A DNA stretch of 39,501 nucleotides from Candidatus Saccharimonas sp. (GTDB taxonomy: Bacteria; Patescibacteriota; Saccharimonadia; Saccharimonadales; Saccharimonadaceae). Below the pieces are notes generated by a model. That model was not told where the DNA came from and ran no database searches. It saw only the letters and a list, made by a program, of their open reading frames with translations. The position numbers and the translations under genes are program-made. Of the stretch, positions 8,124-31,244 are shown piece by piece. The stretch covers positions 1 through 39,501 of the forward strand of contig DZCW01000007.1 in the NCBI GenBank assembly GCA_022736555.1, given 5' to 3'. Position 1 is the first letter of the stretch. Every line of letters starts with the position of its first letter.

Positions 8124-10268
8124 TTAGTATTCGCGACGGTCGAATTTTGCCCGAGTTTCAGCTGCTTCGTTGTCAGCTACTTGTGGTTCTGGGAAGGTTT
8201 TCGGGGCAACCGGAGGACGATTCTGCTCTGGCCTTCGGTTCTGTTCGTTTGGCCTCTTAAAGTTTTGTACGCCACCATTACCGCCACCATTACCGCCCCC
8301 AATCTCATTTATAACCGGGATAACGATTGGTGTTCGCCTAGTTTGATCATACAAAATATGCGTAATTTCGTCCTTGAGCTCTTTTTTAATAACATCTAAA
8401 TCGACATGTTTGCCCGAGAAAGAACGAGCTACCTTTTGTTTTAGATACTGCCTGATCATACCCATCAATTCTTCACTATCGCGAAGATAGATAAAACCAC
8501 GACTAATAATATCAGGACTGGTCATTAGTCGACCACTGCCGCGCTGGACAGTTAAGACTACTACGAACATACCCTCAGAAGCCATATGAATACGGTCCTT
8601 TAAAACAACTTCGGAAACGACTGCGCCACTATCGTCGTACATGATACCACCAGCTGGAATACGGCCGGCTTTTCTAGTACCTTCACTAGTTATTTCTAGT
8701 ACATCACCACTGTCACAAACGAAAATATTTTCTCGTTTTATGCCTGCCGCCTTTTCGGCTAGTTCGGCGTTGTGGACTAACATATGAAACTCGCCGTGAA
8801 TTGGCAAATAATACTTTGGGTTAAGTGCCGTAATCAGCTGAACGTGATCGTCATAATAAGCATGACCCGAAAGATGTAATGGCCCAATACCAGTCAAATG
8901 AGTTTTACCATTCTGGATAACATCACTACCTTCACGCATTAGACCGTCAACCATTCGAACAACGAATTTTTCATTGCCAGGAATCGGGTTAGAACTAAAT
9001 ACAATAACATCGGTGTCTTTAATCTTTATAAATTTATGACTACCGCTAGCCATACGGTTAAGCACGGCGTTAAACTCGCCCTGTGAACCAGTACAAATAA
9101 TCGTAACTTTGCTGTCGGGCATCTTAATTATGTCTTCCATTTTGACGACAACGTCTTTGGGAATTTTGAGGATGCCAGAACGCAGCGCTACTTCTAACGT
9201 TTGGATCATGCTATAACCAGCAAAAGCGACCTTGCGATTATACTGCTTGGCTTCATCCAAAATGAGTTGCATACGATAGATATGGCTGCTAAAACAGCTA
9301 AGGATTAGGCGGCTGTTCGGGTATTTCTCCATAACCTGACCGATACTGTGTTGAATATCCTGCTCGCTATGCATATGAGTTCCTGCAGTTTCGCAGTTGG
9401 TCGACTCGTTCATGAGCATCAGAATACCTTCGGTTGTAGCAATTTCAGTCAAACGTTCCATATCGAATTTTTTGCCATCAACGGGTGCATCATCCATGCG
9501 CCAGTCACCGGTATGAATTAGTACGCCAAGTGGTGTGCGGATAACGATAGCTGAACAATCAGGCACTGAATGGCTAACCCTGACAAGCTCGATATTGAAG
9601 TTATCGCTAACCTGAATACGTTCGTGTTCTTCTGGGTTCATTTCGATATATTGAGGTTCATAGCCATCATTAACAGCCTCTTCCATGGTTCGTTTAACCA
9701 TATTGAGCGTGAATTTTGATCCGTAGACTGGTGCTGGCAGTTTATGGGCAATATGACGAAAAGCTCCGATGTGATCTAAATGAGCATGCGTAAAAATTTG
9801 CGCACGAATTTTGTGCTTGTTCTCCTCTAGATAAGTAATATCCGGGGTAATATAGTTAATTCCTGGATAATCCGCGCCCGGGAATAGAAAACCACAGTCG
9901 ATAATGATGATTTCATTATCATATTCGATTGCCATCATATTCTTGCCGATACCCATCTCGCCCAAACCACCGATTGGCATGACTTTGAGTTTTGGACCGT
10001 TGAATCTTGGCTGTTTCTTTTGTTCAACTGGGCTAAATTGTTTACCGCCGTATCCGTTATAGATCGACTTGTTAACCGGTACGTTAATAACGTGCTGGCT
10101 GGCACGCATATTTACGTTTTCGCTAGTTCGACGTTGCGCTCTAAACGCTTCGCCTTTTCGGACAGTCGTATTATTTAAGACTGTGTTGTTTGATTTCTGC
10201 CTGGGCTGTTGGTTTGGACGCTTTGACAAGTCGTCCCCCTGAGCGTTGGCGAGTCTTTGTTGACCCAT
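8124..10268 (-). CDS. rnj: Ribonuclease J
   Basis: 714 residues. An N-terminal extension of about 90 residues, rich in Gln, Asn and Arg, precedes the metallo-beta-lactamase domain with the metal-binding HAHLDHIGA and HTGDWRMDD. The beta-CASP insert and C-terminal motifs follow (CTGSQGEFNAVLNRM and HLSGHAYYDDH). The C terminus is low-complexity, with three GGGN-like repeats and a proline/arginine-rich tail. RNase J is a 5'-3' exo- and endoribonuclease in mRNA decay and rRNA maturation; together with PNPase just upstream it probably forms the main decay machinery. It starts 3 bases after the UDG stop, with AAGGAG ahead. The extension and tail are likely RNA- or protein-binding (inferred). Confidence 0.95.
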   Translation of the reverse strand: MGQQRLANAQGDDLSKRPNQQPRQKSNNTVLNNTTVRKGEAFRAQRRTSENVNMRASQHVINVPVNKSIYNGYGGKQFSPVEQKKQPRFNGPKLKVMPIGGLGEMGIGKNMMAIEYDNEIIIIDCGFLFPGADYPGINYITPDITYLEENKHKIRAQIFTHAHLDHIGAFRHIAHKLPAPVYGSKFTLNMVKRTMEEAVNDGYEPQYIEMNPEEHERIQVSDNFNIELVRVSHSVPDCSAIVIRTPLGVLIHTGDWRMDDAPVDGKKFDMERLTEIATTEGILMLMNESTNCETAGTHMHSEQDIQHSIGQVMEKYPNSRLILSCFSSHIYRMQLILDEAKQYNRKVAFAGYSMIQTLEVALRSGILKIPKDVVVKMEDIIKMPDSKVTIICTGSQGEFNAVLNRMASGSHKFIKIKDTDVIVFSSNPIPGNEKFVVRMVDGLMREGSDVIQNGKTHLTGIGPLHLSGHAYYDDHVQLITALNPKYYLPIHGEFHMLVHNAELAEKAAGIKRENIFVCDSGDVLEITSEGTRKAGRIPAGGIMYDDSGAVVSEVVLKDRIHMASEGMFVVVLTVQRGSGRLMTSPDIISRGFIYLRDSEELMGMIRQYLKQKVARSFSGKHVDLDVIKKELKDEITHILYDQTRRTPIVIPVINEIGGGNGGGNGGVQNFKRPNEQNRRPEQNRPPVAPKTFPEPQVADNEAAETRAKFDRREY

Positions 10269-10934: not shown

Positions 10935-13046
10935 CTAAACGTCCTTAACACTTAAGCTGAGACGACCGCGGTCATCAATACCGGTTAATCTGACCTTGAT
11001 AATCTGACCTTCTGTTAGGATATCCGTCACCTTTTCAACCCGTTTATCGGATAATTCGCTGATATGAACCATGCCGTCGATACCAGGTAGAATATTCACG
11101 AAAGCACCGAAATCCTTGATACTAACAACTTTACCTTTGTAAACCGTGCCGACTTCTGGTTCTTCGGTTAACGCCCTGATCCAGTTCATAGCTTTTTCGA
11201 TCGCAGCAGTATCAACTGCAGCAACCGTAATCAAACCATCCTCAGCAATATCAATTTGAGCACCAGTCTCGGCGGTGATTTTTTTAATCACATCGCCACC
11301 CTTGCCTATGACTGCTCCAATTTTGTCTGGGTTGATCTGGATTTTTTCAATACGTGGAGCATATTCACTTAGCGCCGTGCGTGGTGCTGATAATGTTTCT
11401 AACATGTGTTTTAGAATAAATGCCCGACCAATTTTGGATTTAGTCAAAGCTTCGCGTAAGATCTCGACGGGCAGACCGTGAACTTTCATATCCATCTGTA
11501 GGGCTGTGATACCTTTTTCAGTACCAGTTACCTTGAAATCCATATCACCAGCAAAATCTTCGGCATCAGCAATATCACTCAGAACATATGGTTTATCACC
11601 GTCCATCATCAAACCCATAGCAATACCAGATACTGGCGCCTTAAGGGGCACACCGGCATCCATTAATGCCAAGCAGCTACTACAAGTAGCGGCCATCGAG
11701 GTCGAACCATTCTGACTCATAATTTCCGTAACGCTGCGAATTGCGTATGGAAAATCTTCACGAGCTGGCAAAACTGGAGCAAGTGCTCTCTCGGCCAAAT
11801 AACCGTGACCGATTTCGCGACGGCCTGGACCGCTAAGTCGACGAACTTCACCGACCGTAAAACCTGGCGCATTATAGTGATGCATATAAGTTCGTTCACC
11901 ATCAGTAACTTCCATGCTATCGACTAATTGAGCATAGCTAAGTGGTGCTAGGGTAATAATATTCATAGCCTGGGTTAACCCTCGGGTAAAGATACTAGAG
12001 CCGTGAGTTCGTGGCAGTATACCTACCTCTGACGATAACTGTCTAATTTCATCTAACTTACGGCCATCTGGGCGTACGCTTTTATCGACAATTCCCTTGC
12101 GGACGTCTTTGTGTAGTGCGCTAGTGAAAGCCTCGTCATATTCGTCATGCATAGCCTTGTATTCATCAGCACCTAATTGCTCACTCATCTGAGCATGAAA
12201 TGCCCAGCGCAAAGTTGACACTAGTTCATTGCGTTCAGCGTAAGGTTTGCGCAAGGCATCACCCAATTTGCCATCAACCCATTCGTCGACAGAGGTTTGG
12301 ATTTCAGCATTAGGTAAAATCAGTTCATATTCTAAAGCTACTGGCGCGACTTTTTTAGCTAATTCATTCTGTAATTTTATAGCTGGCTGATAAGCCTCGA
12401 ATGCCCAAGCTAGCGCTTCAGCGATAACCTCTTCACTGACTTCGTTAGCTCCGGCCTCTACCATAGTAATACCACTGGCAATACCAGCAACGACCAAGTC
12501 TAGATCACTCGCTTCACGCTCTTCGGGTGTCAAAAAGGCTTTGAATTCACCGTTGACACGACCAATACGGATACCAGCAACTGGACCATCAAATGGCATA
12601 CCAGCCAGCATCAAGGCAGCGCTAGCAGCAATCATAGCGATTGAATCTGGTCGGAAAGTTGGGTCTAGTGATAGAACACTTGATACTACTTGGACTTCTT
12701 GGCGATAGCCTTTTGGAAATAATGGACGAATTGGTCGATCGATTAGACGACCAATCAATATAGCTTCGTCGCTAGGACGACCTTCGCGTTTAATAAAGCG
12801 ACTGCCTGATATTTTGCCAGCTGCATAAAACTTTTCCTCATAGTCAATACTAAGTGGAAAATAATCCATTACGAGTGGTCGACTACTAACCATAGCCGTT
12901 CCTAATACTACGGTGTCACCGTAGGTAACCAAAACACTGGCAGTTGTTCGAAAACCAACGCGATTTACTTCGAGTTTGAGCGGTCGCCCACAAAAATCAG
13001 TGGTAACTGAGAAAATCTCTTTACCATTAGGGTTGATAGTAGACAT
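10935..13046 (-). CDS. pnp: Polynucleotide phosphorylase
   Basis: 703 residues, full length. Two RNase PH-like domains come first (the first with IKREGRPSDEAILIGRLIDRP, given here only as a pattern around residues 85-105; the second with GDMDFKVTGTEKGITALQMD), then a KH domain (GAVIGKGGDVIKKI) and an S1 domain (YKGKVVSIKDFGAFVNI). It degrades RNA 3'-5' using phosphate and can act in reverse. The order rpsO-pnp is conserved in many bacteria. A strong AGGAGG lies 7 bases before the ATG, and the leader has hairpins suited to autoregulation. Confidence 0.97.
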   Translation of the reverse strand: MSTINPNGKEIFSVTTDFCGRPLKLEVNRVGFRTTASVLVTYGDTVVLGTAMVSSRPLVMDYFPLSIDYEEKFYAAGKISGSRFIKREGRPSDEAILIGRLIDRPIRPLFPKGYRQEVQVVSSVLSLDPTFRPDSIAMIAASAALMLAGMPFDGPVAGIRIGRVNGEFKAFLTPEEREASDLDLVVAGIASGITMVEAGANEVSEEVIAEALAWAFEAYQPAIKLQNELAKKVAPVALEYELILPNAEIQTSVDEWVDGKLGDALRKPYAERNELVSTLRWAFHAQMSEQLGADEYKAMHDEYDEAFTSALHKDVRKGIVDKSVRPDGRKLDEIRQLSSEVGILPRTHGSSIFTRGLTQAMNIITLAPLSYAQLVDSMEVTDGERTYMHHYNAPGFTVGEVRRLSGPGRREIGHGYLAERALAPVLPAREDFPYAIRSVTEIMSQNGSTSMAATCSSCLALMDAGVPLKAPVSGIAMGLMMDGDKPYVLSDIADAEDFAGDMDFKVTGTEKGITALQMDMKVHGLPVEILREALTKSKIGRAFILKHMLETLSAPRTALSEYAPRIEKIQINPDKIGAVIGKGGDVIKKITAETGAQIDIAEDGLITVAAVDTAAIEKAMNWIRALTEEPEVGTVYKGKVVSIKDFGAFVNILPGIDGMVHISELSDKRVEKVTDILTEGQIIKVRLTGIDDRGRLSLSVKDV

Positions 13047-13526: not shown

Positions 13527-13562
13527 TTGACTTTTTATCTGTTAGATGCTATTATAGAAAAC
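13527..13562 (+). promoter_or_regulatory. Promoter of the VirB6/TrbL-like gene, near-leaderless
   Basis: TTGACT (13527-13532), a 17-base spacer, and TATTAT (13550-13555) preceded by TGC. The predicted start of transcription is near 13562, four bases before the ATG at 13566. A TTG at 13527 that opens the same frame is the -35 box itself and so cannot be the start codon of this transcript. Confidence 0.75.
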
Positions 13563-13565
13563 GTA

Positions 13566-16352
13566 ATGTGGGAATTTGCGAGATTACCTTCGCATCGATA
13601 TACATCCATGCGGAAGATTTTTATTTACTCTATGGCTGCCATCGCAGCTGCTTTTTTGTGGGCGCTCGTTTTTACCTCTAATACTTTTGCCATTGATGCT
13701 AGCTGGAGTAACAAAACCGCAATCAGCTATGAGAGTAATGTCTACCTTGGCCCGGTTAATGAAACCGATAATGTAAAACTCGGATTACCAAAGGGCGCCA
13801 AAGCCTATACCTACACCGACCCTACCCTAGTTAACTCTAGCTCTACCGATCCACAAAAAATACATATTATATATTTTACGCCCGATGTCGATGTTAGTGC
13901 GGCCACTAGCGCAAAGTATAAAACCTTTTTATATAATGGTCCTGGCGATTTTTCTAGCCCATCATCACCCGTAGATATAGTTATCGGGCTACAGTCAGCC
14001 GCCCCTGATCCAGGGACTTCGTCCTGCGTAGTTGACGGTGGCTTAGGCTGGATAATTTGCCCAATAACTAATTTCATAGCTAACGGTATGGACCATATAT
14101 TCGGCATATTAAGTAATTTCTTGACCGTCAGACCAGTCGGGACCAATTCGGACAGTGCCCTTTTCCGAGCTTGGACTTACATGCGCAGCTTTGCTAACGT
14201 AGCCTTTGTCGCTGCCTTTTTGATCATTATATATTCACAATTAACAAACCTAGGTATTAGTAATTACGGAATTAAAAAGTTATTACCAAGGCTAATCGTC
14301 GCCGCCCTATTAGTTAACTTGTCTTATTACATATGCGCTATTGCTGTTGATATATCCAACATACTAGGACATTCCCTGCAAGATGTATTCATCAGTATGC
14401 GCAATAGCTTGGTTGGGTCTGAAGGTAATAATTGGAATACGATTAGTTTTAGTAGTATTTCTAGTTTTATATTGTCGGGCGGGACTCTCGCAACTGCCGG
14501 TGCGGTAGGTTTAGGCTTTACCTTGATGAATTACGGCATAGCTGGTTCGTTATTCCTATTATTACCGACATTAATGGCCGGATTAGTTGCCGTATTAATC
14601 GCACTGCTGATCATGGCTGCTCGTCAAGCGATTGTTACTATATTAATCATTCTATCGCCACTAGCATTTGTAGCCTATCTATTACCAAACACCGAGAAGT
14701 GGTTTGAAAAATGGCAATCGACATTTGTGACTATGTTAATTCTATTCCCTGCCTTTTCAATAGTATTCGGTGGCTCGCAATTAGCAGCGGCAGCTATTAT
14801 TCAAAACGCTGATTCGATTAACCTGATTATTCTAGGTATGGTTATCCAAGTAGTACCCCTATTCGTTACGCCACTACTTATCAATATGAGCGGATCTATC
14901 CTTGGTAAAGTCGCTGGTATTGTTAATAACCCCAACAAAGGCCTTATCGACCGAACCCGCAAATTCACTGATGATCGTGCCCAAAACATCATGGCAAAAC
15001 GCCTTGGTGCCAAGGCCCAGAATGGTGAATTCCTTAAACGAGGAGCTCAATATATGGATCACAGACGTCGCAAGCGCGAAGGTCTAAGGAGCGCTCGTAC
15101 TGGTATGACCGATGCTCGTTGGGCAAATTCCAGAGATTATAGCAATATTGATCAGATGTCACGCGAGGCATCTAGTAGTAAGTCTCTCGGTGAAGGTCGC
15201 TCGGAATTACGTTACAACAGCCAAAAGAATGTCACCGGCAGCCATATTCAAAATCTAGATATGCGCTTGCGTGAGAATAAACAGCAACTCGACAATACTA
15301 ACGCTAGAACCGAAAATATATTCAAGGCTTCGCCAAATTATAAATCACTCCACGAAGACGCTTATAAACTCGGGATCAGCAAGACCACGATCGAGCAAAC
15401 TCTTGAGCGCGATCTAAGCAGAAAGATTAGTGTTACTCCTGAGCTATTACGCAAAGAGATGAAATCACGTCTCACCACTAATGAGGCAACGTACGAAAAA
15501 GAGCTTATCAATAGAGTTGAACAAGAAATTAAGGCTGGTATAGATACGAGCACTACTGGCGCATTGTCTGCGCTGGCCGCTCACTCTGAACTAGTTACCC
15601 GTAATATTTCAATAAATGGGCTCGCAATAGAAAGCGCCAAACGCGTACAGCAACAGAACTTCGAGAAAGCGCTTGCTCCTACATTAGAAAAAGGCAAGAT
15701 AGTTGTTACGGATGCTGCAAGATTAGCAGCTGGTATTGATAGTAAACATGGTAGCGAACGCATACAGGCCCTTGTCAAATCAATGGAAGACAAGCGAGAT
15801 AATGAGGACGTAACGGCAATGATAACCTTGATGAACTCGAGCACCTCTGCTGAACGTAAGATTAATGATGCTAATAATTGGCTACGAGAAGCACGTAGCG
15901 AGGGCGACATCGTCAAAGGCTTTGCTGCTACTAAACTTCTCATGTCTACGGGTATGGCCGGTAAATTAAAGCTAGATAAGATAATCCGAGAGATACCAGC
16001 CGGTGATGATAGCTTGTTTGTGAATGAGCTAAAAGGGTTCTTGCTATCTAATGGCATCAAAGAGTCTAACGTAGCTATAGATAAATGGGCTATTAATGAG
16101 GATAAGCTAAGTCTTGACACGGTAGCAAACACCCTATCAACGTATCAGGGAGTCAATCTCGAAGATCTTGCTGGACAGGCCAATCACCTCCTTCGTGCCG
16201 CTTTGAATGCCGGGTATATAGATAGTAAATCGGCTGGTGAATTGCTATCGAACCCTAACTCGGCCAAAAGGCTCACAAAAGAACAGCGATCATTCTTTGA
16301 GGCTGTTAGAGATAATAGCCCAATACCACCATCATCAAAAACAGCTCCATAG
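13566..16352 (+). CDS. VirB6/TrbL-like polytopic membrane protein with long helical tail
   Basis: 928 residues from the ATG at 13566, chosen because the promoter puts transcription 4 bases upstream; the ATG at 13608 (MRKIFIYS) is an alternative. A signal-peptide-like hydrophobic segment lies at about residues 17-40, an extracellular domain to about 200, then six or so transmembrane segments at about 208-445. The stretch MAARQAIVTILIILSPLA followed by LLPNTEKWFEKW matches the conserved core of TrbL/VirB6-type type IV secretion channel proteins. From about 450 the protein is charged and helical, presumably cytoplasmic. No VirB4 or other secretion genes are beside it. Involvement in DNA or protein transfer or in type IV pilus-like machinery is inferred from the family. 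Confidence 0.8.
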   Translation: MWEFARLPSHRYTSMRKIFIYSMAAIAAAFLWALVFTSNTFAIDASWSNKTAISYESNVYLGPVNETDNVKLGLPKGAKAYTYTDPTLVNSSSTDPQKIHIIYFTPDVDVSAATSAKYKTFLYNGPGDFSSPSSPVDIVIGLQSAAPDPGTSSCVVDGGLGWIICPITNFIANGMDHIFGILSNFLTVRPVGTNSDSALFRAWTYMRSFANVAFVAAFLIIIYSQLTNLGISNYGIKKLLPRLIVAALLVNLSYYICAIAVDISNILGHSLQDVFISMRNSLVGSEGNNWNTISFSSISSFILSGGTLATAGAVGLGFTLMNYGIAGSLFLLLPTLMAGLVAVLIALLIMAARQAIVTILIILSPLAFVAYLLPNTEKWFEKWQSTFVTMLILFPAFSIVFGGSQLAAAAIIQNADSINLIILGMVIQVVPLFVTPLLINMSGSILGKVAGIVNNPNKGLIDRTRKFTDDRAQNIMAKRLGAKAQNGEFLKRGAQYMDHRRRKREGLRSARTGMTDARWANSRDYSNIDQMSREASSSKSLGEGRSELRYNSQKNVTGSHIQNLDMRLRENKQQLDNTNARTENIFKASPNYKSLHEDAYKLGISKTTIEQTLERDLSRKISVTPELLRKEMKSRLTTNEATYEKELINRVEQEIKAGIDTSTTGALSALAAHSELVTRNISINGLAIESAKRVQQQNFEKALAPTLEKGKIVVTDAARLAAGIDSKHGSERIQALVKSMEDKRDNEDVTAMITLMNSSTSAERKINDANNWLREARSEGDIVKGFAATKLLMSTGMAGKLKLDKIIREIPAGDDSLFVNELKGFLLSNGIKESNVAIDKWAINEDKLSLDTVANTLSTYQGVNLEDLAGQANHLLRAALNAGYIDSKSAGELLSNPNSAKRLTKEQRSFFEAVRDNSPIPPSSKTAP

Positions 16353-16359
16353 TCTTTCT

Positions 16360-17025
16360 CTAATCTTCAATATTGAAATCTACTAGTTTATTTGCTTCGG
16401 CAACATTCCAGTCACTAATACTAACCCGCCGCAATTGCGTACAATACGCACCGGTGTTTAGTACTTTACCAATATCTTCAGCTAAAGTGCGTATATAAGT
16501 ACCGCTCGAAACATGTACCCTAATCTTAATATCTGGGTACGTATAGTCGATCAGGTTGATCGAATATACCGTGATTATACGTTCTGGCATCTCAATTTTT
16601 TCACCCTTGCGCGCCAGTTTATAGGCCCGCTGACCATTAATTTTAATGGCGCTATAAATCGGCGGACGTTGAGTGATTTCGCCAGTAAAGCCCGTAAGTG
16701 TTTTATCGATTTCTGATTTAGTAGGTATTCTATCCGAAATATCAGTAATCTCACCTTCTGGGTCACCGGTTGTACTAGTTTGCCCTAGATGGATTGTTGC
16801 TTCGTAAATTTTATCGAGTTTGCTGTAAGAGCCAGCATTTTTACATTCTTGGCCGATTACCAATATCATTAGCCCGGTTGCGAAAGGATCTAACGTGCCG
16901 GTATGCCCTACTTTGACTTTCTTACCTTGCTGTTGTGATAAAACCCGTCGCACACGAGCTACCACACCAAAACTAGTCATATTAGCTGGTTTATCAATTA
17001 GTAAAATACCGTCTTGCATACTCAC
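16360..17025 (-). CDS. truB: tRNA pseudouridine-55 synthase TruB, no PUA domain
   Basis: 221 residues. It has the TruB catalytic core: GILLIDKPANMTSFGVV at the start, GHTGTLDPFATGLMILVIG with the catalytic Asp, RPPIYSAIKINGQRAYKLAR, and VHVSSGTYIRTLAEDIG. It makes pseudouridine 55 in the T-loop of tRNA. Typical TruB proteins are about 300 residues and end with a PUA-like domain; this one stops right after the catalytic domain. It lies 28 bases after the NrnA-like gene, matching the nrnA-truB adjacency of many bacteria. Confidence 0.95.
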   Translation of the reverse strand: MSMQDGILLIDKPANMTSFGVVARVRRVLSQQQGKKVKVGHTGTLDPFATGLMILVIGQECKNAGSYSKLDKIYEATIHLGQTSTTGDPEGEITDISDRIPTKSEIDKTLTGFTGEITQRPPIYSAIKINGQRAYKLARKGEKIEMPERIITVYSINLIDYTYPDIKIRVHVSSGTYIRTLAEDIGKVLNTGAYCTQLRRVSISDWNVAEANKLVDFNIED

Positions 17026-17053: not shown

Positions 17054-18604
17054 CTATTGGCCAGGAATTCTAAATTGGCTAGGATCATTAGCGTTTGATG
17101 GCGGTAGCGTACTGGTCATCGGTGTAACCGGTTCAACTACTGGTGCGCCAAAGCTCGGCATAGCCGGCATAGCCGTCGATACGGTCGATGCTGCCGTTAC
17201 TATAGGTATCGTAGGCATTGTTGTCATTGTTGTTGGGGGTGGCAAAGTCGAAAAATCAGGCAGCGGTGGGGGCAAAGGTAAATCAACAACCGACGGAGCA
17301 CTTGACATTGGGCCACTGCTAAATATATCAACAGATTGCGACGAATCCTCGGACTGTCCAGCGCTGTTTATTGGGGTGTTGGAAGTAGATGAACCACCTA
17401 AATAGGAATGAGACAATATCGTCTTATTTTGTTGGTCTTCTATATCGCGCCTAGCCTGTTCGGCAGCTTCTTCGGCTGTAGCGTTTAATGTACCGCCTAG
17501 TGATGGCTCGGCTGCAGCTCGGGGAATGGTCGTAGCAATTTGCGGCGCAATCGTTGAAGCAGGTGGCAATATCGGTGCCGGAGCCGCAACTGGAATTGGG
17601 GTTGTAGCTGGGATTATTAATGGTTCTATATTATGATTTTCAACAACTTCGGGTTTTATCGGCGGGACCGCAACTGAAGAAATCGGCACATCAACCGCTT
17701 TTTCCAACTGATGGTTTATAGTCAAATCCCCCGTGGGTAATGTCGAAACCGATGGTTCGGTTACAACCTGTGGAACTGGGCTGGCGATTTTAGTAGCAAC
17801 CGTACTGATATCAGCACTAGTTTCTGATGAATTTATCTCATGAGATTCTCTTAACTGCGTAGATATCAATTGCTGATCAGCCCCAGCCGCCATCAATTGA
17901 GCGGCAATGTTCATCGTGCTAGGAGATGTCAATATATTACTAAATCTATCAGTAGCCGCTACGATACCGGTTAATAATGAGGTCGAAATTTGCTTGTCTA
18001 ATAGAGATTTGTCAGTTTTTAGACTGTCGCTAATATTAGCCACCATCTCGCTTAGGCTACTAGCAGAACCGTCATGCCAGTCTAGACTGCCTAGTTGGCT
18101 AAATTTATCACCAGCACTAAATGTGACAATAGTCACATCTTGCAATACCTGCCCATGGGCTTCTAGCGACATATCTAGATGGTCTTTGCTGGCAACGCCC
18201 AAGGCTAATACTAATTCGACATTATAGTCACCTTGACTAAATTCTAGATCATTACTAGTGATAGTTGTTTTATATGGCGTAATAAAAATTTTCACTACAT
18301 CGCCATCAACTTTGTAACGTAGATGGTCGGCTTTTTCTTTATCTAAAGCAACTATAAAATCACGTAAGCTGTCGGCGCTGTTCTCGAATACCTTATCTGG
18401 GTTTAGGAATGAAATAGCTGGTGGAATTGCCCCGCTAAAAATAGCCGTGGCATGTTTATCTAGTTTATTCAAAAGCGCCGTCAAGCCGAGGGCTGCCGAT
18501 AAATCATCGACCGATGGGTCGCGACTGACGGTTATTAGAATATTGGTCGAACTTTTGATCTTGTCGACAATTTGTTGTTTTATCTTGAGGTCAGCATCAT
18601 TCAT
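17054..18604 (-). CDS. Degenerate NrnA/DHH-like protein with Pro-rich tail
   Basis: 516 residues. Residues about 1-275 follow the layout of NrnA-type DHH phosphoesterases: ILITVSRDPSVDDLSAALGL where NrnA has HxxPDxD, FSAGD where NrnA has the DHH motif, SASSLSEMV matching SASSVSEMI, and LTGIVAATDRF matching the GIVGDTGRF region. The metal-binding His and Asp residues are mostly gone, so phosphodiesterase activity is unlikely. Residues about 275-516 are low-complexity and rich in Pro, Ala, Ser and Thr, with repeats of the PPLPPP and PPPTT kind. Position next to truB supports descent from NrnA. The present role is unknown; a nucleotide- or RNA-binding scaffold is one guess. Confidence 0.75.
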   Translation of the reverse strand: MNDADLKIKQQIVDKIKSSTNILITVSRDPSVDDLSAALGLTALLNKLDKHATAIFSGAIPPAISFLNPDKVFENSADSLRDFIVALDKEKADHLRYKVDGDVVKIFITPYKTTITSNDLEFSQGDYNVELVLALGVASKDHLDMSLEAHGQVLQDVTIVTFSAGDKFSQLGSLDWHDGSASSLSEMVANISDSLKTDKSLLDKQISTSLLTGIVAATDRFSNILTSPSTMNIAAQLMAAGADQQLISTQLRESHEINSSETSADISTVATKIASPVPQVVTEPSVSTLPTGDLTINHQLEKAVDVPISSVAVPPIKPEVVENHNIEPLIIPATTPIPVAAPAPILPPASTIAPQIATTIPRAAAEPSLGGTLNATAEEAAEQARRDIEDQQNKTILSHSYLGGSSTSNTPINSAGQSEDSSQSVDIFSSGPMSSAPSVVDLPLPPPLPDFSTLPPPTTMTTMPTIPIVTAASTVSTAMPAMPSFGAPVVEPVTPMTSTLPPSNANDPSQFRIPGQ

Positions 18605-18782: not shown

Positions 18783-19181
18783 ATGCCAATCATTAAATCA
18801 GCTATCAAGCGCGCCAAACAAACTATTAAACGCCGCGCACGAAACGTCGGCATTAAACACGACATCAAAGAAGCCAGCAAAGCTTTCGTCGCAAAGCCTA
18901 GCGCTAAAACTCTAGGTGCTACTTATAGCGAAATTGACACTGCTGTTAAAAAAGGTCTAATCAAGAAAAACACGGCTGCTCGTCGTAAATCACGACTATC
19001 AAAAGTTGCTAAAAACGCAGGTGTTAAACTAGCCTCTGCTAAGAAAGAAACTACTAAGGCAGCTCCAAAAGCCGAAGCTAAACCAGCTACCACTAAAGTC
19101 GCTGCTAAAAAAATAATTGCTAAACCTGCCGTAAAAAAGACCGTAGCTAAAAAACCAGCTGTTAAAAAAGCTGCTAAATAA
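18783..19181 (+). CDS. rpsT: 30S ribosomal protein bS20 with Lys/Ala-rich tail
   Basis: 132 residues. The first ~88 residues are a normal bS20 three-helix bundle (MPIIKSAIKRAKQTIKRRA at the start; KKGLIKKNTAARRKSRLSK later), which binds 16S rRNA at the base of the 30S body. From about residue 89 the protein continues with some 45 residues of Lys, Ala, Pro and Thr, with repeats such as AKKPAVKK. Such tails resemble histone H1-like tails and are absent from typical 85-95-residue bS20. It has its own promoter and terminator. The tail may bind RNA or DNA (inferred). Confidence 0.95.
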   Translation: MPIIKSAIKRAKQTIKRRARNVGIKHDIKEASKAFVAKPSAKTLGATYSEIDTAVKKGLIKKNTAARRKSRLSKVAKNAGVKLASAKKETTKAAPKAEAKPATTKVAAKKIIAKPAVKKTVAKKPAVKKAAK

Positions 19182-30689: not shown

Positions 30690-31244
30690 CTACTTGACCT
30701 TTGTAAGGTAATATTTCAACTCTTCGATGCTGCCGCGAATATCATCAAGGGCACGATGCGCATCGGGTTTTGCATATTTTTTCTTGAACTTGTTTTCAAA
30801 AACAACCTTCCAGGCGCTAACATCCAACATACGATAATGTAGGCGCGCATCTAGCTTAGGCCACTTTGCTACGATGAATCGCCTGTCCATGTGGATTGAA
30901 TTACCGCCTAGTAAGACTGGCGCATCAGCCTTGAAATGAGCGTTTATAAAATCGAGTAGCTCGGTTTCTATTTTTGACGAAGATTTGCCAGTTTCATTTT
31001 GCGCCAGTAGCCCGTCACGAGAATCAGGATGAGCATCCCAAAACGATGCGTTAATAACCATACGTTTACGAACTGCTGCCGACTTGCTGCCGACCACCCC
31101 TTGATAAGTTGCAATTTCCTTGAAATCCCAATCAGTTACAATTGCCGCAACCTCCAAAATTAGATCGTCAACTGGCGACAATAGCCCGGTCATTTCTAGA
31201 TCGATCCATAGAATCCGGTCGGATTTTGTATTTTTCTTGGCCAT
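30690..31244 (-). CDS. orn: Oligoribonuclease
   Basis: 184 residues, DEDDh exonuclease: IDLEMTGL (Asp and Glu), NSIHMDRRFI, MLDVSAWK and HRALDDIRGSIEELKYYL (His and Asp). It degrades short oligoribonucleotides of 2-5 nucleotides to mononucleotides. This matters because the NrnA-like protein in this window appears inactive, leaving Orn as the likely nanoRNase. It starts one base after mscL in the argS-mscL-orn unit. Confidence 0.96.
   Translation of the reverse strand: MAKKNTKSDRILWIDLEMTGLLSPVDDLILEVAAIVTDWDFKEIATYQGVVGSKSAAVRKRMVINASFWDAHPDSRDGLLAQNETGKSSSKIETELLDFINAHFKADAPVLLGGNSIHMDRRFIVAKWPKLDARLHYRMLDVSAWKVVFENKFKKKYAKPDAHRALDDIRGSIEELKYYLTKVK

Follow-up and report, generated by a model that had tools for sequence, protein, structure and literature searches.

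FtsZ and SSB each combine a folded domain with a poorly conserved linker and a short conserved C-terminal docking peptide. DHH proteins that have lost catalysis have been described on the RecJ side of the family: Cdc45 and the inactivated archaeal RecJ represent a DHH nuclease that was retained as an apparent structural part (PMC3307487), and in Haloferax RecJ4, which is missing active-site residues, forms a complex with RecJ3 and aRNase J (PMC10470531). The cited account of the NrnA side treats active enzymes and laboratory mutants (PMC9757072), and among open-licence papers we found none that linked Saccharibacteria to DHH and phosphoesterase, DHH-DHHA1 to a pseudoenzyme, or Patescibacteria to either NrnA or a pseudoenzyme.

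The protein examined here resembles each of these systems in part. It has the DHH fold of NrnA and the T. maritima phosphodiesterase (TmPDE) and a common ancestry with them, but it lacks their two-metal site and DHHA1 domain and carries an insert of about 50 residues and a long disordered tail. With Cdc45 it has in common a DHH fold, an inactivated site, and conservation across a lineage; however, Cdc45 and the archaeal RecJ belong to the RecJ lineage, to archaea and eukaryotes, and to the replication helicase, whereas this protein is bacterial, of apparently NrnA-like lineage, and equipped with a scaffold-like tail. The Haloferax RecJ3 and RecJ4 differ in being archaeal RecJ-type proteins with OB/S1 domains, and the cited sections mention no disordered tail. 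In architecture the protein is like FtsZ and SSB, to which its fold and peptide sequence are unrelated, and like RNase E-type degradosome scaffolds it has a disordered tail with conserved segments, which would serve for docking.

The gene encodes 516 amino acids from an ATG start (open reading frame and translation at positions 17054-18604, minus strand) in a 39,501-nucleotide stretch of a Candidatus Saccharimonas genome, the whole of which was analysed and is referred to below as the window. Family models alone recover it poorly: the Pfam DHH match (E 0.027) falls below the cut-off, and the NCBIfam NrnA model gives 24 bits where its cut-off is 350, a threshold that decides nothing since the intact NrnA of the same genome falls short of it too (104.9 bits). 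A PDB sequence search found 3dev (E 3e-7). The AF2 model of residues 1-266, built from 62 aligned sequences, had a pLDDT of 95.3 and a pTM of 0.90, and Foldseek placed TmPDE and NrnA at the top of its matches, closely followed by GdpP (E from 2e-13). In VIA comparisons the model matched TmPDE (5o4z) with Z 27.4 and 2.1 Å across 206 residues, Bacillus NrnA with Z 24.5, and RecJ with Z 13.8, at 22-24% identity to NrnA and TmPDE. Based on the model and these matches, the DHH fold is established as far as prediction can establish it, in agreement with the sequence-only reading, which had traced the fold through SASSLSEMV and LTGIVAATDRF (both present in the translation) and had proposed the structural comparison with NrnA. 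The folded domain comprises residues 1-262 (17819-18604, minus strand; AF2 model and PDB matches), including the insert and without DHHA1. Approximately 60 of the 266 modelled residues are unaligned to the PDB matches, which agrees with an insert at residues 77-128, and the Pfam DHH match spans 194 residues here versus 146 in the genome's NrnA. We consider it reasonably probable that this protein was once a DHH phosphodiesterase and that, its catalysis lost, it has been remodelled into a scaffold or adaptor.

To assess the catalytic site, we compared metal-ligand columns in 79 proteins of the window's family (L009, L117, and L118 excluded), 27 further proteins of its order, and 20 from other orders of its class with those of 17 intact orthologs from other Patescibacteria; family, order, and class are kinship labels of the genome search, the class presumably being Saccharimonadia, and identical proteins were merged beforehand (185 loci to 159 proteins). 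The seven ligand columns read D, D, D, D, H, H, D in 17/17 intact orthologs. In the window protein only the second aspartate of the DxD motif remains among the ligands of DxD, motif II, DHH, and motif IV. Across the family, where kinship among rows inflates all such counts, the first aspartate of motif I (DPSVDDLSAA, 18491-18520, minus strand; serine in the window protein) is S or T in 77 of 79 proteins (one D, one N) and in 26 of the 27 additional order proteins. The second, D33, is retained in 77/79, 27/27, and 20/20 proteins of the family, order, and class sets, respectively. The aspartate of motif II (LVLALGVA, 18191-18214, minus strand) has become G, as it has in 64/79 family proteins (N in 8, D in 6) and 27/27 others of the order. 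The former DHH motif III (IVTFSAGDK, 18104-18130, minus strand) is lost and its constraint relaxed, the aspartate of DHH being S or T in 63/79. Lastly, the metal aspartate of motif IV (LLTGIVAATDRF, 17942-17977, minus strand) is replaced by A, a residue found in 54/79 family proteins, none of which has D. The 27 further order proteins show a similar ligand pattern with mostly E at motif IV, and the 20 proteins from other orders of the class mostly read D-[YF]-H at DHH, an intermediate state. Most intact relatives have the GGGxH motif of DHHA1; no class member of the insert-bearing clade described below has it, and a Pfam DHHA1 match was found in the intact L054 but not in the window protein, L050, or L163. 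The sequence-only reading had described the PDxD and DHH motifs as decayed; they are indeed gone, but the word is too weak, as the lost residues of motifs I and II are replaced by new conserved S/T and G, the loss is class-wide, and conserved peptides occur in the tail. Given the retention of the second aspartate of motif I in 77/79 proteins, that residue may still support some metal or phosphate binding.

A tree of DHH proteins (86 rows, with crude intact or degenerate pattern labels that mislabelled some short NrnA rows) resolved two DHH clades in the phylum: a short NrnA of about 330 aa and an insert-bearing form of about 385 aa in many outgroups. The window gene is a member of the insert-bearing clade, in which the class rows form one clade of 36 rows (SH-aLRT 99), all inactive by motif. 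Both kinds were present in 18/18 re-searched outgroup genomes, and the window genome has, in addition to the window gene, a separate short NrnA (L002) with intact DHH and DHHA1 motifs, as well as RecJ, Orn, and RNase Y. The ancestor of the window gene is an insert-bearing paralog with DHH and DHHA1 domains, which other Patescibacteria still have in intact form. An orn gene lies in the window (30690-31244, minus strand; NCBIfam oligoribonuclease, 138 bits against a cut-off of 106), as had been noted from the sequence; its presence shows that another gene can supply the nanoRNase function. We rejected the idea that the organism's NrnA had gone dead and been replaced by Orn, as an intact NrnA is encoded elsewhere and the window gene represents a different paralog clade. 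A second, outgroup clade has also lost the motifs (9 rows, SH-aLRT 92: L082, L085, L091, L096, L268, L270, L271, L273, and L276), and the tree is compatible with one loss or two. Its members keep full length and have gained no tail, and Pfam DHHA1 was not found in the five that were scanned (L082, L085, L091, L096, and L268). That the same paralog was also inactivated in this second Patescibacterial clade may indicate that a role independent of catalysis goes back to the ancestral protein.

The coexistence of an inactive and an intact DHH protein in one genome raises the alternative that the pseudo-DHH protein is the regulatory partner of an active nuclease, either the intact NrnA or RNase J, and determines where that enzyme acts or how active it is. 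The RNase J gene is in the window, and the Haloferax complex of RecJ4 with RecJ3 and aRNase J provides a precedent (PMC10470531). We nonetheless regard this as unlikely, given that the domain has no close sequence similarity to the short NrnA clade and that DHHA1 has been lost. The window's RNase J (8124-10268, minus strand) carries about 93 residues ahead of its family-model match that are rich in N, Q, and R.

We then compared relative conservation along the domain between 17 diverse pseudoenzymes (family and order) and the 17 intact orthologs, which have similar mean identities (0.46 and 0.48, respectively). The insert (residues 77-128, about 50 residues between motifs I and II; 18221-18376, minus strand), which is missing from the genome's own NrnA, is the most conserved region of the pseudoenzymes and below average in the intact relatives. 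It shows the largest rise (+1.03 SD), and motif III the largest fall (-1.18 SD), each value being attained in 3 of 249 circular shifts. From this we infer that a new binding surface took over from the active site. The zones of motifs I and II stay conserved in the pseudoenzymes (z 0.33 and 0.56), and this, together with the near-invariant D33, could also be expected of a ligand sensor, in which the domain would bind a nucleotide through the remaining D33 together with two conserved loops, SVD and LGV, and would pass the signal on through the tail. Such a role appears rather improbable, however, as the substrate-gripping DHHA1 and most of the ligands are gone and the greatest loss of constraint falls on the motif III zone.

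The remainder of the protein is a tail rich in Pro, Ser, Thr, and Ala (residues 263-516; 17057-17818, minus strand), predicted by the full-length model to be disordered except for a helix at 377-396 and a better-scored short stretch at about 441-450. It measures about 255 residues, or 262 by another cut, for which P+S+T+A make up 50%; the sequence-only reading had put such a tail at about 240 residues. The mean tail length in the family is 362 residues. Conserved segments include PSLGGTLNATAEEAAEQARRDIEDQQNKTILSHSYL, which contains the predicted helix (17399-17506, minus strand), the region around PPPLPDFSTLPPP (17234-17278, minus strand), and the C-terminal peptide DPSQFRIPGQ (17057-17086, minus strand), an instance of the D-P-x-Q-F-x-I-P-G-Q ending of the window's family. 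Using regular expressions composed after the sequences had been seen, and leaving out rows with an open 3' end, we found LGG..NAT in 29/79, NKTIL.H in 45/79, PLPDF[SG]-like segments in 52/79, and ERLGDI-like segments in 22/79 family tails, compared with less than 0.4% of shuffled tails for each. C-terminal [FY]x[IV]P occurred in 79/79 family proteins (81/81 complete tails with two more rows) and in 0.25% of shuffled tails. Among the named records it ended 53 of 57 closed tails (two further loci are open), the closed tails without it being L250, L252, L256, and L258 (masked). The motif was found in 2/23 proteins of the order's other families, 18/23 of which have PPP[VIL]PPP-like segments close to the C-terminus, and in 0/20 of the other class proteins. 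As the peptide is confined to the window's family and two neighbouring families, its partner would be lineage-specific. A QFxIPG pattern searched in the DNA of eight genomes matched in seven, once per genome in the gene and twice elsewhere; the two outside matches (L194 and L196) were taken as chance, and that of L196 lies within a reading frame that by eye resembles a sortase. A Pfam ASFV_J13L match in 1/54 proteins (E 0.0048) was taken as low-complexity noise.

The gene has a recurrent neighbourhood, consistent with the orthology in the tree. It is flanked on the same strand by truB (16360-17025, minus strand; Pfam TruB_N), the divergent neighbour is rpsT, encoding S20 (18783-19181, plus strand), and pnp lies at 10935-13046 (minus strand). 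In the 20 class loci fetched, S20 was beside the gene in 20, TruB nearby in 19, and HolA in 18; in 20 outgroup loci, the window TruB as query matched in one, pnp was found in eight, and several had the order DHH-rpsO-pnp, with rpsO read from the sequence by eye. The proposal that the place next to truB is ancestral is thus only partly borne out: it holds within the class, but in the outgroups the window TruB matched at a single locus and rpsO-pnp follow the gene in several. Between truB and pnp on the opposite strand is a 941-aa frame (13527-16352, plus strand) that looks like a membrane protein, TrbL/VirB6-like by eye only, with no Pfam or NCBIfam match; relatives of 40-41% identity occur in 2/20 fetched class loci (L057 and L062). 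In five other loci (L058, L059, L061, L063, and L065) the pseudo-DHH gene is separated from truB by a convergent gene that carries KKIIFGxFAHPDDEAF close to its start and looks, by eye, like a PIG-L deacetylase.

The presence of HolA in 18/20 class loci also bears on a possible role as a replication accessory, a bacterial Cdc45 analogue whose C-terminal QFxIP would be a clamp-like or SSB-like docking motif. QFxIP may resemble clamp motifs such as the QLSLP of Hda. Inactive RecJ paralogs are moreover replication parts in archaea (PMC3307487). We consider this very unlikely: the domain model is closer to NrnA and TmPDE than to RecJ (Z 27 versus 13.8, in a comparison of structures, the tree having been built without RecJ rows), and the gene order may be ancestral.

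The gene was found in 191/195 genomes of the class, 26/28 of the genus, and 98 of 101 of the family, of which 97 are clear; the remaining family match, a 350-aa frame in G053 with E 8.6e-5 and 24% identity, probably represents NrnA. The phylum count of 223/286 is an upper bound that includes weak matches. For the four genomes of the class without the gene (G469, G470, G190, and G392), another class member as query returned nothing or one weak match. In one genome (G510; L117, L119, and L122) the gene is in several broken pieces, probably an assembly fault in a fragmented genome. The selection test that had been suggested for the folded part was run on pairs of relatives. For the four closest (dS 0.61-1.35) it returned dN/dS values of 0.008, 0.027, 0.020, and 0.033, and across the 14 least-diverged pairs, the first excepted, 0.02-0.13, indicating strong purifying selection. 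The domain's median identity to the window (68%, 15/15 loci) compares with 69% for TruB (14/15), 73% for MutM (12/15), and 48% for HolA (12/15). A pseudogene or relic was rejected on account of the low dN/dS, the conservation, and the lack of internal stops in the listed matches. That the protein still works as a conventional DHH phosphodiesterase, only with an atypical catalytic site, is hardly credible, as the fold and D33 are kept but metal ligands are lost at fixed positions class-wide together with DHHA1.

Thus, we provide evidence for a real and strongly conserved pseudoenzyme family. The structural or regulatory role first proposed from the sequence is favoured by the confirmed fold, the loss of catalytic and substrate motifs, and the strong purifying selection. 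As the cutting site has been lost, a tail with a conserved tip has been gained, and the protein is kept nearly group-wide, it is probably a connector rather than an enzyme. As a scaffold or adaptor, it would tether partners and would not cut RNA: the insert face of the folded domain would hold a single constant partner (or the other half of a dimer), the flexible tail would reach outward from this platform, and the C-terminal DPxQFxIPGQ and internal segments would dock on further proteins. Nanoribonuclease work done by Orn and NrnA would have freed the insert-bearing paralog for this change. As for the complex, our first guess from the rpsT/holA-truB-rpsO-pnp neighbourhood and the nanoRNase-like ancestry is one with PNPase, RNase J, or RNase Y that serves RNA turnover or RNA processing linked to the ribosome, although the gene order may be inherited and not functional. 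We did not find RNase E/G in the genome, and RNase Y, RNase J, and PNPase are present, making it possible, judging by gene content, that the window protein organises a degradosome-like hub.

Structural inactive DHH proteins are already known on the RecJ/Cdc45 side, and the present protein is a case on the NrnA side, in ultrasmall bacteria. The insert and the C-terminal peptide offer two concrete handles for a partner search, and genetic manipulation has been reported for Saccharibacteria (PMC10633639). Only tentatively, we suggest that Saccharibacteria near-universally have a hub in which a dead NrnA-like nuclease, with the insert as its main face and a C-terminal docking peptide, would organise an RNA-turnover or replication complex. 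Given that these genomes are reduced, and that almost every genome in the class retains this 516-residue protein although it seemingly does no chemistry, the protein must matter to the organisms that carry it.
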